Source: Streptomyces sp. ASQP_92 (GTDB lineage Bacteria; Actinomycetota; Actinomycetes; Streptomycetales; Streptomycetaceae). From it: DNA of 64,000 nt. Positions within the stretch are counted from its first letter, which is position 1; each line of letters starts with the position of its first letter. Shown one piece after another: positions 38,261 to 43,149 of the stretch. Position numbers and translations under genes: made by a program. The notes beneath the pieces were generated by a model, which saw only the letters and a program-made list of their open reading frames with translations, did no database searches and was not told where the DNA came from. The DNA lies in the NCBI RefSeq assembly GCF_025399895.1, contig NZ_JAODUA010000010.1, positions 1-64,000 on the forward strand. Direction: 5' to 3'.

Positions 38261-39109
38261 GTGGCCAGGAAGCTCGCCGTCATCGGAGCCGGACTCATGG
38301 GGTCCGGTATCGCGCAGGTCTCGGCCCAGGCGGGCTGGGACGTCGTGCTGCGCGACGTCACCGACGAGGCCCTCACCCGGGGCACCGACGGCATCAAGGC
38401 CTCGTACGACCGGTTCGTGAGCAAGGGGAAGCTGGCCGCCGAGGACGCCGAGGCCGCGCTCGCCCGCATCACCACCACCACCGATCTGGACGCCGCCGCC
38501 GACGTCGACATCGTCGTCGAGGCCGTCTTCGAGAAGCTGGAGGTCAAGCACGAGATCTTCCGCACGCTCGACAAGATCGTGCGCCCGGAGACCGTGCTCG
38601 CCTCCAACACCTCCGCCATCCCGATCACCAAGATCGCGGCGGCCACCGAGCACCCCGAGCGGGTCGTCGGCGTCCACTTCTTCTCGCCGGTCCCGATGAT
38701 GCAGCTCTGCGAGCTGGTGCGCGGCTACAAGACCAGCGACGAAACCCTGGCCGCCGCGCGGGAGTTCGCCGAGTCCGTCGGCAAGACCTGCATCGTCGTC
38801 AACCGCGACGTGGCCGGCTTCGTCACCACCCGCCTCATCTCGGCGCTCGTCGTCGAGGCCGCGAAGCTGTACGAGTCGGGCGTGGCCAGCGCCGAGGACA
38901 TCGACCTCGCCTGCAAGCTGGGCTTCGGCCACGCGATGGGCCCGCTCGCCACCGCCGACCTCACCGGCGTGGACATCCTGCTGCACGCCACCAGCAACAT
39001 CTACACGGAGTCCCAGGACGAGAAGTTCGCCCCGCCGGAGCTGATGCGCCGGATGGTGGACGCGGGTGACATCGGTCGCAAGAGCGGGCAGGGCTTCTAC
39101 AAGCACTGA
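38261..39109 (+). CDS. 3-hydroxybutyryl-CoA dehydrogenase
   Basis: Reduces acetoacetyl-CoA to 3-hydroxybutyryl-CoA with NAD(P)H, linking to butyryl-CoA and ethylmalonyl-CoA metabolism. 282 residues: Rossmann motif VIGAGLMGSGIAQ, the SNTSAIPI and HFFSPVPMMQL motifs with the catalytic His, and a C-terminal helical domain ending GRKSGQGFYKH. The GTG at 38261 follows TTGGAGGGAAG; the longer open frame from 37862 overlaps tetR. An acetoacetyl-CoA thiolase is encoded at 55575, supplying the substrate. Confidence 0.94.
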   Translation: MARKLAVIGAGLMGSGIAQVSAQAGWDVVLRDVTDEALTRGTDGIKASYDRFVSKGKLAAEDAEAALARITTTTDLDAAADVDIVVEAVFEKLEVKHEIFRTLDKIVRPETVLASNTSAIPITKIAAATEHPERVVGVHFFSPVPMMQLCELVRGYKTSDETLAAAREFAESVGKTCIVVNRDVAGFVTTRLISALVVEAAKLYESGVASAEDIDLACKLGFGHAMGPLATADLTGVDILLHATSNIYTESQDEKFAPPELMRRMVDAGDIGRKSGQGFYKH

Positions 39110-39244
39110 ACCGCCGACCGCCCGAGACCTCACCCCCAGGGGTGAATTAGGTATCGGTTGGCTCACGGGCGGCAACTTCTGCGGCCGTCGGGCAGTCAGT
39201 TGTTGAGTCGGTTGTCGAAAAGCCAAGCACTCTCGGGAGCGCAT

Positions 39245-39568
39245 ATGCACATCAGGGGCGACCACGTCGAGCTGGTCGTCGGGGGCCGCCTCGACGTCCG
39301 CAGCGCGGCGGACGCCCGTACGGCCCTGCACTCGGCGGTCGACGACGGGGCCGGTGACCTCGTGCTCGACCTCACCGAACTGGACTCGTGGGACGCCACC
39401 GGACTCGGCGTCATCATGGGAGCCCACCGCCGGGCCGGCCGGTGCGGTCGCCGCCTCGTGCTGCGCGGCGTGCCGCCGCAGATGCAGCGCCTCCTGGTCG
39501 CCACCCGGCTGCACCGCATCCTCGCCATCGAGGGCGGCATCGTGGCCGAGGCCCTGCCGCGCGTCTAG
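39245..39568 (+). CDS. STAS-domain protein (anti-sigma antagonist type)
   Basis: 107 residues covering one STAS domain: VVGGRLDVRSAADARTAL, then VLDLTELDSWDATGLGVI, where the Ser or Thr phosphorylated in SpoIIAA-like proteins would lie, followed by GAHRRAGRCGRRLVLRG. Such proteins bind anti-sigma factors in a phosphorylation-controlled way. No anti-sigma factor or sigma gene is adjacent; the next gene is a large membrane NTPase, which might be a partner. The ATG follows GGGAG. Confidence 0.85.
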   Translation: MHIRGDHVELVVGGRLDVRSAADARTALHSAVDDGAGDLVLDLTELDSWDATGLGVIMGAHRRAGRCGRRLVLRGVPPQMQRLLVATRLHRILAIEGGIVAEALPRV

Positions 39569-39766
39569 GGAAGGCCCGTCCGGGAGTTGTCCGGACAGGA
39601 GTGCGGTAAACGGACTCCGCGCACAATCCTCACGAGACCGTGACGTCTTGGGCGGGGCGGCACCCCGCCTGTTCGTAGATACTGTCCGGAGTCTAGGGTT
39701 CGGCTTCCCGCCGATCGACGAACCCACACGGCGGGGACCGGACCAGAAGCGACAGCGAAGAGCGAA

Positions 39767-39801
39767 GTGCGTAAGGGCCGGGAGGGGCAATCCTTACGCA
39801 C
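39767..39801 (+). promoter_or_regulatory. stem-loop before the STAND-like gene
   Basis: GTGCGTAAGG (39767-39776) and CCTTACGCAC (39792-39801) are a perfect 10-bp inverted repeat with a 15-base spacer, ending 23 bases before the ATG. It could be an operator or a structure in the mRNA leader. The remaining gap from 39569 to 39766 also holds TTGTCCGGACAG (around 39587), partly palindromic. Confidence 0.55.
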
Positions 39802-39824
39802 CACGCATCTGGGGGGCTTTCACC

Positions 39825-42392
39825 ATGGACCCGAAGAGCCGGGGACCGGAAGAGTTCAACCATGCCGACGACTCCGTCGGCGTTGCGGGCGCACACGCGG
39901 AACCGGGCGCCGGACCGCAGCGCTCCGCACGCGACAAGGAGCCCGCGGCCCCCGAGTTCGCCCAGCGCGCGGCCGGCCTCGCGCGCACCGTCCAGCTCGT
40001 CGCGGGCGACTTCCTCCTGACGGTCAATCCGGTCGACGGCAGCGAGATCGAGAACTGCCCGCCGGGCGAGATACCCGGCCGCCCGGTACGGCGCACCGCC
40101 GCCGAGCGGGCCGAGAGCGAACGGGCCGCCCGGCCGCCGCTGCCGCCCGGCCTGATGACACCCGCCCCCGCCCTGCTCGAACGGGCGGAGGAACGCGCCC
40201 GGTTGGTGCGCCTCCTGGGCCGTGGCCGCTCCGTGCGGCTCACCGGGCCCGCGGGCGCCGGACGCAGCGCCCTGCTCGACGCCGTCGCCGGCGACTGCGC
40301 CGAACTCGCGCCCGACGGCGTCGTACGCCTCTCGGGCCACCGTCGCGGCCCCGCCGAGCTCCTGCACGAGCTGTACGCCACCGTCTTCCGCACGCCCCTG
40401 TACCGGCCCGACCGGCCCACCCTGCTCGACCGCGTCCACGAGATCGGCGCCGTCGTCGTCCTCGACGACCTCGAGTTCGGCGGGGCCGCCCTCGAAGAGC
40501 TGCTCATGGCCACGCCCGAGTGCGCCTATGTGCTCGCCGCGACCCCCGACACCCCCGCGCCGCACCCCGACTCGCACGTCGAAGAGGTCTTCCTCGCGGG
40601 CCTCGGCCGCAACGCCTCGCTCGAACTCCTGGAGCAGGCCGTCGACCGGCCGCTCACCGACGAGGAGGCCAACTGGGCGGGCGACCTCTGGTTCGAGTCC
40701 GAGGGTCTTCCGCTGCGCTTCGTCCAGGCCGGCGCCCTGCTGCGCCAGCGCGACCGCCTCCGGGGCGAGGGCACCTCGCGCGACGCGTACGGCTTCCCGG
40801 TCGACGAGCCCGCGGACGCGTCGGTGTTCTCGGGCGAGGGCCGCGAGATTCCGCTGCCCACGCTCGGCGAGGGCGCGGCCCCCGCGGCCCTGCTCGCCTC
40901 CCGGCTGAGCGAGGCCGCCCGCGCCACCCTGCGCTTCGCCGTCGCGCTCGGCGGTGAGGTGCCGCACCAGGCGCATCTGCCCGCGCTCATCGGCGACACC
41001 CACGCGGACGCCGCCCTCGGCGAACTCCTCGACAGCGGGCTCTTGTCCCCGGTCGGCTCCCGCTACCGGCTCGCCGCGGGTGTCCTCACGCAGCTGGAGA
41101 GCACCGGTTACGCCGCCGACGCGGGGGAGCGCGCCCACTCCTCCGCCCAGCACTACACCTGGTGGACCGGCCACCCCTCGGTCACCCCCGAGCGGGCCGC
41201 GGCCGAGGCCGACGCGGTGCTCGCCGCGATGAGCGCGCTCGTGCCGGGCGACCAGGACGAGCACCCCGCCACCGCCGTCAAGCTGGCCCGCACCGCCGCG
41301 CCCGTCTTCGCCGCGGGACTGCACTGGGGTGCCTGGGAGCGGAGTCTGCGGGTCGGGTCCGAGGCGGCCCGGCTGACCGGCGAGGTCGCCGAAGAGGCGT
41401 ACTTCCACCACGAGTTGGGTGTCCTCGCGCTGTGCAACGGCGGCCTGGACCGGGCCCGCGCCGAGCTGGAGGCCTCCATCGCGCTGCGCGGCGCGCTCTC
41501 CGACAAGCGCGGCACCGTCGCCGGACGCCGGGCGCTCGCCCTGGTCGAGGACTGCGCGGGCGGCCTCACCGTGGCGGGCCGCACCCCCGTCGGCGAAGAG
41601 GTGCCCGCCGCCCGCCACGAGGAGTCCCAGTCGCAACCCGGGACCGTCCCCGCAGCGGCGGTGACCGCCCAACTCCCGGACTACGGCGCCCCGTTGATCA
41701 CCCGACGTGACACCCCGGTCGGCGGCGCCATGCCCTCCGCCCGGCGGCGCACGGTGTTCGGCGGTGCCCGGCGCAACCTCGTCGCGGCCGGAGCGGGGGC
41801 GCTGCTCGCCGCGGTGCTCGGCACCGTGGTCACCCTGGGCGCGACCTCCAACGACAACAGCGACGGCGGCGGCGGTGGCGTCAAGCAGCATCAGCCCGCC
41901 GACGAGGGCGGCTCCGACGGTGGCCCGGACGCCGGCTCCGACAACTCCGGCCCCGGAGCCACCCCCGGCGACGGCAAGGGCGGCGGCCCCGCGAGCCCGA
42001 GCAGGCCGGGCACCACCGGCAGGCCCGGCACCTCGGGTCAGCCCGTCCCCGGCACCAGCGGCAGCCCGGTCCCGGGCCATTCCTCCACCGGACCGTCGAC
42101 GCCGGGCACCCCCAAGCCGTCCACCTCGGGCCAGGCCTCGCCGTCGGGCAAGCCGTCGCACTCGGGCAAGCCCACGCCCACCAGCTCGGGCTCGACCTCG
42201 CCGTCGCCCTCGGGGTCGACATCGCCCGGGCCCTCGGCCTCGCCGAGCAGTGGCGGCAGCGGCCCGCCGCCTTCCACGAAGGCCCCGCCGCCCTCCACCA
42301 AGGCACCGCCGCCTTCCAGCAGCGCCTCCACCTCCCCGACGTCCAGCGCGCAGGCAGGATCCAAGCCGCCGTCGCCGTCGACCAGCTCGTAG
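39825..42392 (+). CDS. membrane-anchored STAND-like NTPase with extracellular tail
   Basis: 855 residues in three parts. The cytoplasmic part has an NTPase domain with a P-loop GPAGAGRSAL (141-150), in which arginine replaces the usual lysine, and a Walker B with two aspartates (AVVVLDDLEF, about 209-218), then a helical region with a TPR-like stretch (ELGVLALCNGGLDRARAELE). One membrane helix follows at about 650-672 (preceded by RRRTVFGGARRN). The last 180 residues are Gly/Ser/Pro/Thr rich with repeats such as PPPSTKA and should lie outside the cell, perhaps threading the wall. I recall syntenic S. coelicolor proteins annotated only as ATP/GTP-binding. Role unknown; signalling across the membrane is an inference. 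The ATG at 39825 begins the conserved part. Confidence 0.82.
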   Translation: MDPKSRGPEEFNHADDSVGVAGAHAEPGAGPQRSARDKEPAAPEFAQRAAGLARTVQLVAGDFLLTVNPVDGSEIENCPPGEIPGRPVRRTAAERAESERAARPPLPPGLMTPAPALLERAEERARLVRLLGRGRSVRLTGPAGAGRSALLDAVAGDCAELAPDGVVRLSGHRRGPAELLHELYATVFRTPLYRPDRPTLLDRVHEIGAVVVLDDLEFGGAALEELLMATPECAYVLAATPDTPAPHPDSHVEEVFLAGLGRNASLELLEQAVDRPLTDEEANWAGDLWFESEGLPLRFVQAGALLRQRDRLRGEGTSRDAYGFPVDEPADASVFSGEGREIPLPTLGEGAAPAALLASRLSEAARATLRFAVALGGEVPHQAHLPALIGDTHADAALGELLDSGLLSPVGSRYRLAAGVLTQLESTGYAADAGERAHSSAQHYTWWTGHPSVTPERAAAEADAVLAAMSALVPGDQDEHPATAVKLARTAAPVFAAGLHWGAWERSLRVGSEAARLTGEVAEEAYFHHELGVLALCNGGLDRARAELEASIALRGALSDKRGTVAGRRALALVEDCAGGLTVAGRTPVGEEVPAARHEESQSQPGTVPAAAVTAQLPDYGAPLITRRDTPVGGAMPSARRRTVFGGARRNLVAAGAGALLAAVLGTVVTLGATSNDNSDGGGGGVKQHQPADEGGSDGGPDAGSDNSGPGATPGDGKGGGPASPSRPGTTGRPGTSGQPVPGTSGSPVPGHSSTGPSTPGTPKPSTSGQASPSGKPSHSGKPTPTSSGSTSPSPSGSTSPGPSASPSSGGSGPPPSTKAPPPSTKAPPPSSSASTSPTSSAQAGSKPPSPSTSS

Positions 42393-42410
42393 AACAGTGG
42401 CAGCACACAC

Positions 42411-42446
42411 GAGAAGGGGCCCGCAGCACTCTGCGGGCCCCTTCTC
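42411..42446. terminator. bidirectional terminator between the STAND-like gene and nucS
   Basis: A perfect 16-bp stem (GAGAAGGGGCCCGCAG and its complement) with loop CACT lies between two convergent genes, 19 bases after one stop and 32 bases from the other. Confidence 0.92.
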
Positions 42447-42477
42447 GTACGTCACCGCGGCCGTCGCGGTCCCGGGG

Positions 42478-43149
42478 TCAGAACAGCCGGAGCTTGTCGT
42501 CCTCGATGCCGCGCAGGGCGTTGTAGTCGAGCACCACACAGTTGATGCCGCGGTCGGTGGCGAGCACCCGGGCCTGGGGCTTGATCTCCTGGGCCGCGAA
42601 CAGGCCCTGGACCGGCGCGAGGTGCGGGTCGCGGTTGAGCAGCTCCAGATAGCGGGTGAGCTGCTCGACACCGTCGATCTCGCCGCGCCGCTTGATCTCG
42701 ATGGCGACGGTCCTGCCGTCACCGTCCCGGCACAGGATGTCCACCGGGCCGATGGCCGTGGGATATTCGCGGCGGATGAGGGTGTAGCCCTCGCCGAGGG
42801 TGTCGATGCGGTCGGCGAGCAGTTCCTGGAGGTGCGCTTCCACGCCGTCCTTGATCAGGCCAGGGTCCACGCCGAGTTCGTGCGAGGAGTCGTGGATGAC
42901 CTCCTCCATCGTGATGATGAGCTTCTCGCCCGCCTTGTTGATGACGGTCCAGACGCCCTCGTCGTCCCCCGAGCCCTCCTTGAGGGTGCACGGCGGCGAC
43001 ATCCAGTTCAGGGGCTTGTAGGCCCGGTCGTCAGCGTGGATGGAGACGCTGCCGTCCGCCTTCACCAGGATGAGACGGGGGGCGGAGGGCAGGTGGGCGG
43101 TGAGCCGGCCCGCGTAGTCGACGGAGCAGCGGGCGATGACGAGACGCAT
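42478..43149 (-). CDS. nucS: mismatch endonuclease NucS (EndoMS)
   Basis: Cuts DNA at mismatches and provides mismatch repair in actinobacteria, which lack MutS-MutL. 223 residues: an N-terminal beta domain ([26 protein letters not shown]) and a C-terminal restriction-like nuclease core with the D...E-x-K residues in [22 protein letters not shown]. The last residues DDKLRLF look like a beta-clamp binding peptide, as reported for NucS. The ATG at 43149 is chosen; a TTG at 43158 gives three more residues. A TAGCGT eight bases upstream may be the -10 box of a nearly leaderless mRNA. Confidence 0.95.

Follow-up and report, generated by a model that had tools for sequence, protein, structure and literature searches.

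A predicted membrane-anchored STAND NTPase with an arginine P-loop encoded beside nucS in Streptomyces

Introduction

NLR-type switches, whose architecture is familiar from animal and plant immunity, are mostly regarded as intracellular sensors. Proteins such as Apaf-1 join an NTPase, a winged helix and helical repeats in that order; described bacterial NLRs include ones with the BASS amyloid motif and a BELL effector (Dyrka et al. 2020), in which the motif lies at the C-terminus of the effector according to the available portions of the reports (PMC7889193, PMC12261475). Here we analyse a stretch of 64,000 nucleotides from Streptomyces sp. ASQP_92 (contig NZ_JAODUA010000010.1, positions 1 to 64,000; hereafter the window), taken from a genome of 8.13 Mb in 81 contigs, in which a gene for a 107-aa STAS-domain protein is followed by a gene for an 855-aa predicted membrane-anchored STAND NTPase (39825..42392, + strand; ATG at 39825, stop at 42392), the latter recognised from its open reading frame, alignment and a structural model. 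A sequence-only reading of this DNA had put the two forward as a possible signalling pair. We lean, if only slightly, towards another account, in which the NTPase is an NLR-like STAND switch that crosses the membrane once, a headless and fixed member of a wider actinomycete family of membrane receptors, and the upstream STAS gene is a separate entity.

Architecture of the NTPase

The comparisons draw on two samples. Of 504 confirmed relatives, the best 80, hence the closest, supply the Streptomyces loci, which with the window give 81 aligned sequences; the class draw comprises 394 genomes sampled evenly across the class, among them 40 same-genus genomes matching the NTPase, and its loci may overlap with the 80. 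An AlphaFold run on 44 sequences (mean pLDDT 72.5, pTM 0.70) places a strand at residues 136-140, a helix from residue 147, a strand at residues 210-216 and TPR-like helices at residues 433-578 (41121..41558, + strand). Together with the structural matches, the model gives the STAND order of a P-loop NTPase fold, then a winged helix, then a helical repeat region. The best matches are STAND proteins, namely Apaf-1 (3sfz; Z 22.6, rmsd 4.2 over 401 residues; Foldseek E 2.8e-9), the NB-ARC of NRC1 (Z 21.1), the STAND-TPR protein 6mfv (Z 20.1) and 8bob (Z 18.4).

The P-loop GPAGAGRS (residues 141-148; 40245..40268, + strand) aligns in 81/81 sequences, and the Walker B strand VVVLDD (residues 210-215, with DD at 214-215; 40452..40469, + strand) is supported by alignment and model. 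R147, D214 and D215 are invariant throughout, so that the lysine hallmark of general P-loop NTPases is replaced by arginine in 81/81 sequences, and the acidic end of Walker B typical of STAND proteins is present as DD in all of them. Both the Arg P-loop and the DD are also kept in 35/35 class-drawn same-genus loci that hold this stretch (36 loci after removal of the own genome and of re-fetched stretches, L133 having no P-loop stretch). In spite of the arginine, the fold and the homology to lysine-bearing relatives allow the protein to be firmly assigned, on the predicted structure, to the STAND class. A GLPL stretch (residues 294-297) was noted by eye ahead of the winged helix, the domain that carries the MHD-type motif in the NB-ARC subfamily. 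No MHD-type histidine was seen by eye in the winged helix of the 81 aligned sequences, where an invariant R415-L416-A417 (within a YRLAAG stretch) stands instead, and because this motif is missing the protein is not classed as NB-ARC. Pfam and NCBIfam gave P-loop matches only, all under their curated cut-offs, and AAA_16 was matched at E <=0.01 by 42/44 NTPase members scanned; the earlier remark that the family is annotated only as ATP-binding was thus fair.

The top hydropathy window begins at residue 652, and we place a membrane helix, running from inside to outside, at residues 652-672 (41778..41840, + strand), followed by an outside tail of 183 residues (673-855; 41841..42389, + strand) of which 76% are Pro, Ser, Thr or Gly. 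The helix and tail are assigned on composition because the model falls below pLDDT 50 there. One strong C-terminal helix recurs in 81/81 sequences (KD19 hydropathy peak >=2.03), with Arg and Lys richer on its N-terminal flank, and the tail has at least 151 residues in 81/81, with a median P/S/T/G fraction of 0.67. A single-pass, inside-to-outside topology is therefore likely. In one locus (L042, 6001 onward) the NTPase open reading frame reaches 1148 aa with an odd 468-residue tail, probably through a frameshift or fusion.

The layout given by the sequence-only reading (a STAS protein, then an 855-residue protein with an Arg P-loop, a DD, a TPR-like part, one helix and a Pro/Ser/Thr/Gly tail) holds, and a winged helix can now be added to it. 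The structure prediction that it had suggested, together with the composition of the C-terminal part, supports a STAND NTPase that is anchored in the membrane and has its tail outside, and the loss of the P-loop in orthologues that it had envisaged as a counter-indication was looked for and not met with, the Arg form being retained in both samples.

Distribution and relatives of the NTPase

The NTPase is matched in 40/40 same-genus genomes listed from the class draw, three of the matches (G089, G234 and G371) being split into two pieces; within its family, Streptomyces is the sole genus to figure in the class-draw match lists for the NTPase and for STAS, where Kitasatospora and similar genera do not appear. 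Outside the genus, three genomes (G362, G330 and G207; loci L114-L116) match at E <1e-20, and about 20 others match at 1e-9 to 1e-5, mainly near the P-loop. Within the genus, L117 holds a paralogue, G317 a divergent second copy (L118) and L081 a plasmid protein (P0004), which is the one weak relative from a plasmid scan and was found through 11% of the query. The second copy (L118:1779-5120, contig C45) has no STAS, NucS or leader match adjacent.

The P-loop carries Lys in L114-L117, Arg in L118 and reads GKT by eye in P0004. This bears on a rival account, in which the protein is a pseudo-NTPase scaffold whose Arg P-loop ended catalysis and which does no more than connect a cytoplasmic complex to the wall by way of its TPR region. 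The contrast between Arg in 81/81 Streptomyces proteins and Lys in L114-L117 would fit such a loss, as would the want of an MHD-type histidine in the invariant YRLAAG stretch; against it, the P-loop glycines and the DD of Walker B are fully kept, as expected where nucleotide is still bound, and we regard the scaffold as rather unlikely.

C-terminal KD19 peaks of the six relatives are 2.56 (L118), 2.51 (L116), 2.30 (L114), 2.09 (P0004), 1.83 (L117) and 1.61 (L115), giving four clear membrane helices, a borderline one in L117 and a weak one in L115. Outside, P0004 carries an Ig-like choice-of-anchor D domain (7.6e-17).

A further feature of the relatives lies at the N-terminus. A hidden Markov model of the Streptomyces NTPases aligns residues 54-85 to the N-terminus of the L114 protein with good posterior values, and alignment A4 shows the same N-terminal columns in seven proteins; by these two alignments, a beta element at residues 54-77 of the window protein (RTVQLVAGDFLLTVNPVDGSEIEN; 39984..40055, + strand) is homologous to the GxVVxGxxN element of the relatives. 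Among 48 genes picked around the six relatives, 7 carry the pattern G-x-[VMLI]-[VLI]-[VAS]-G-x-x-N, namely at the N-termini of the four STAND proteins of L114-L117 and of three small genes directly adjacent to them (L114:8651-8953, L115:7678-8250 and L117:7965-8384; none in L116). The background, 9,473 open stretches from the window, from the 80 loci and from 20 other-genus loci, gave no match; this count serves as a specificity control and not as a blind test, since the pattern had been derived from the very sequences that carry it. STAND protein and small gene both read GPVVAG in L114 and GQVVVG in L117, as would be the case if the two partners of a pair recognised one another; the L115 pair differs (GTMVVG and GQVVVG). 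TRADD-N and EAD systems (PMC8195603, PMC7159879) were considered for the small motif genes, for which Pfam gave no match.

The STAND fold and these small neighbours, which resemble the NLR-effector pairs described in the accessible part of PMC7889193, could also speak for a conflict or anti-phage defence protein like other bacterial STANDs. We hold this to be highly unlikely for the window protein, which has no PADLOC match at E 0.01 and whose gene occupies one syntenic place in 40/40 same-genus genomes, unlike the patchy distribution of defence genes.

The upstream STAS gene

The STAS gene (39245..39568, + strand) was recognised from its open reading frame and from matches to Pfam STAS_2 (5.4e-16) and NCBIfam ant_ant_sig (58.0 bits, cut-off 53.45). 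Among solved structures its closest relatives are chains of SpoIIAA, 1tid foremost. Ala51, in the loop DATGLG, aligns with the phosphorylated serine of SpoIIAA, Ser58, and 1tid also has Ala there; this alanine is a feature that the sequence-only reading had not mentioned. The STAS domain expected of a SpoIIAA/RsbV antagonist is thus present, and because Ala stands at the phosphorylatable position in 81/81 proteins we file the protein simply as a STAS protein; the adjacent Thr52 is a possible alternative phosphorylation site. Its own genome yields 20 STAS matches, and among the ten others readable at this site Ser occurs six times, Cys twice, Ala once and Phe once (in a short alignment). Outside the genus, 20 loci (L164-L183) were fetched of 42 matches in the class draw; their loops read DATGLG (18), DASGLG (1) and DVTGLG (1), with Ala in 19, Val in one and Ser in none at the site.

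The genes adjoin with great regularity. STAS lies upstream of the NTPase in 80/80 loci, and in the class draw it was matched at E 1e-18 in 39 of 40 same-genus genomes, on the same contig and strand as the NTPase in 39/39 checkable genomes with 114-1039 nt between matches; the exception is G340, whose NTPase match lies terminally on a contig of 5.6 kb. The conserved linkage across Streptomyces that the sequence-only reading had proposed as a check is therefore real. It had also suggested that the two may form one system, a reading in which the STAS protein, with its SpoIIAA-type fold by sequence, would bind the STAND protein or carry its output as parts of a single switch, and this second claim is not supported. 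The NTPase gene has its own promoter-like block and leader, described below; no NTPase of this kind was found at E 1e-5 near the other-genus STAS genes (0/20 loci, some stretches ending at contig ends); no STAS protein of the kind in question (P0001-like) was found beside the relatives or the second copy (L114-L118); and STAS evolves far more slowly, with a median identity across loci of 92.5% vs 61.4% for the NTPase. The adjacency itself is weak evidence because the whole block is syntenic within the genus, running from a 3-hydroxyacyl-CoA dehydrogenase-like gene (HBD) directly upstream of STAS, through STAS and the NTPase, to nucS, which lies downstream on the opposite strand (NCBIfam endonuclease NucS, 409 bits); HBD and nucS are equally syntenic neighbours. 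We consider a joint switch distinctly improbable, and a partnership of the STAS protein with the NTPase unlikely on these genomic grounds.

The other-genus stretches instead point to a wider Ser-less STAS family, beside which the NTPase occurs only in Streptomyces here, and the STAS gene is probably an older, separate gene whose product is not switched at the usual serine. Of these 20 stretches, some of them cut by contig ends, 8 include HBD and 10 include NucS; Pfam-checked neighbours are an EPSP-synthase family enzyme (L171), methylmalonyl-CoA mutase with HBD (L172), a Na/H exchanger (L167) and a TetR protein (L183). A functional link between the NTPase and NucS was considered and set aside: the two genes are convergent in 79/80 loci, yet those ten NucS genes have no such NTPase nearby. 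L016 is the sole locus of the 80 to give no NucS match, though its contig extends about 2 kb beyond the matched NTPase part.

The counterpart of the NTPase in S. coelicolor is, we assume, SCO5387, a number derived from its neighbour nucS, SCO5388. A literature search, judged mostly from listings, gave no study of this NTPase; for SCO5386, SCO5387 and SCO5388 only SCO5388 turned up, in PMC5290159, and SCO5387 is not named in the accessible main text of the S. coelicolor glycoproteome (PMC6593405). The Streptomyces membrane NTPase beside nucS is apparently unstudied.

Promoter-like block and leader

The gap between STAS and NTPase, 256 nt in the window, was a feature absent from the sequence-only reading. 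Across the 80 loci it measures 108-367 nt and holds a conserved promoter-like block; a two-gene operon was judged unlikely. In the window this block, defined by alignment of 81 intergenic regions, spans 39617..39706 (+ strand) and includes a conserved -10-like TAGGGT seen by eye (39694-39699, + strand). Because a sigma-70 consensus scan gave no site, the promoter call rests on conservation and on that hexamer. The part upstream of TAGGGT (39617-39693) is strongly conserved and is possibly a regulator site.

Downstream, alignment, folding and a covariance model indicate a probable structured 5' leader (39738..39816, + strand). Its pairing comprises CC 39738-39739 with GG 39815-39816, a stem of 39743-39751 with 39804-39812 and a hairpin of 39767-39776 with 39792-39801, with an apex of GCC/GGC around GGGAGG. 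As the leader overlaps the G-rich ribosome-binding stretch (39811-39816) and adjoins the ATG, its fold would hide part of that stretch. The covariance model was built from 62 leaders (alignment A2: the 81 intergenic regions less three unrecognised ones, identical ones and those >95 nt); it finds the window copy at E 3.1e-15 and only one chance-level place elsewhere in the genome (E 0.63). It matches 29/35 class-drawn orthologues with an upstream region, weakly in L108 and L110, and the leader is absent or unfound in 6/35 (L111, L124-L127 and L132). In alignment A3, where these 29 leaders and three chance-level matches are fitted to the model, both-sided changes occur in 8/20 pairs, a number reached by 0/500 shuffles. 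Covariation in A2 is mixed, two of five measures being no better than shuffles (43/500 and 229/500). Further results speak against the leader: RNAalifold on A2 gives just -4.6 kcal/mol with the hairpin in another register, and single-sequence folding has a z-score of -1.93, equalled by 9/200 shuffles. Rfam gave no match up to E = 1 across 39000-42600.

Proposed function

From its architecture and relatives we infer that the NTPase may act as an outside-in receptor. Through the tail and membrane helix, the TPR part would be informed of conditions at the envelope or cell surface, and a closed form held by nucleotide would thereby open; the opened NTPase could then self-assemble in the plane of the membrane, and its N-terminal beta element could recruit a downstream protein. 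Arg in place of Lys probably means slow or no hydrolysis, and nucleotide binding, not turnover, would therefore set the state. In evolutionary terms, the membrane STAND proteins would make up a wider actinomycete family, certain members of which bear a folded head outside the cell and lie beside a small gene with the same N-terminal element. One member without a head would have become fixed in the Streptomyces chromosome, would have exchanged Lys for Arg at Walker A and would have acquired a promoter and a leader of its own.

Several points weigh against this proposal. Relatives at E <1e-20 outside the genus came from only 3/394 genomes, and the wider family accordingly rests on six proteins, among which the membrane helix is weak at most in L115 and borderline in L117, the outer Ig-like domains of L116 and L117 are below-cut-off matches, and the Cys-bearing beta region of L114 and the propeller-like repeats of L115 are readings by eye only. 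The window NTPase and its Streptomyces orthologues fail the strict motif pattern, and their surroundings showed no small gene with the motif. Residues 1-53 and 581-690 of the model have pLDDT <50, so that the N-terminus and the membrane helix are of low confidence. Arg at Walker A need not abolish hydrolysis, and this analysis found no signal, partner or output of the NTPase.

More tentatively, and rather doubtfully at this stage, one may picture a class of actinomycete NLR-like membrane receptors with an outer head or wall-spanning stalk, an inner STAND switch and an N-terminal motif through whose homotypic assembly the small proteins of adjacent genes are recruited. The Streptomyces one would be a headless, fixed sensor with an Arg P-loop and a housekeeping role, its translation governed by an RNA leader of its own. 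A vertically inherited, membrane-spanning NLR-type switch in every Streptomyces genome drawn would provide a direct route from the surface to a STAND protein, and the Lys-to-Arg change at Walker A offers a natural way to learn if hydrolysis is required in a STAND. Both the leader and the Ser-less STAS family raise questions separate from the NTPase.

Comparison with known systems

The STAS protein resembles SpoIIAA/RsbV (1tid, 1th8) in its STAS fold by sequence, its DxTGLG loop aligning with DSSGLG; it differs in having Ala at the phosphorylated serine, and no kinase gene was noticed adjacent. With the BASS NLRs, as described in the available portions of the reports, the likeness lies in distant relatives of the NTPase, where receptor and neighbouring small gene have a short N-terminal motif in common; here, however, the motif is N-terminal in both proteins, the receptors are predicted to span the membrane, the window protein lacks the strict motif, and the motif is shared with a neighbour in three distant relatives only. 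The window protein is likest to Apaf-1/NB-ARC and STAND-TPR proteins (3sfz, 6mfv, 8bob), which have NTPase, winged helix and helical repeats in the same order. It departs from them in its Arg for the Walker A Lys, in showing no MHD-type His and no recognised N-terminal effector domain, and in adding a predicted C-terminal membrane helix and an outside tail.

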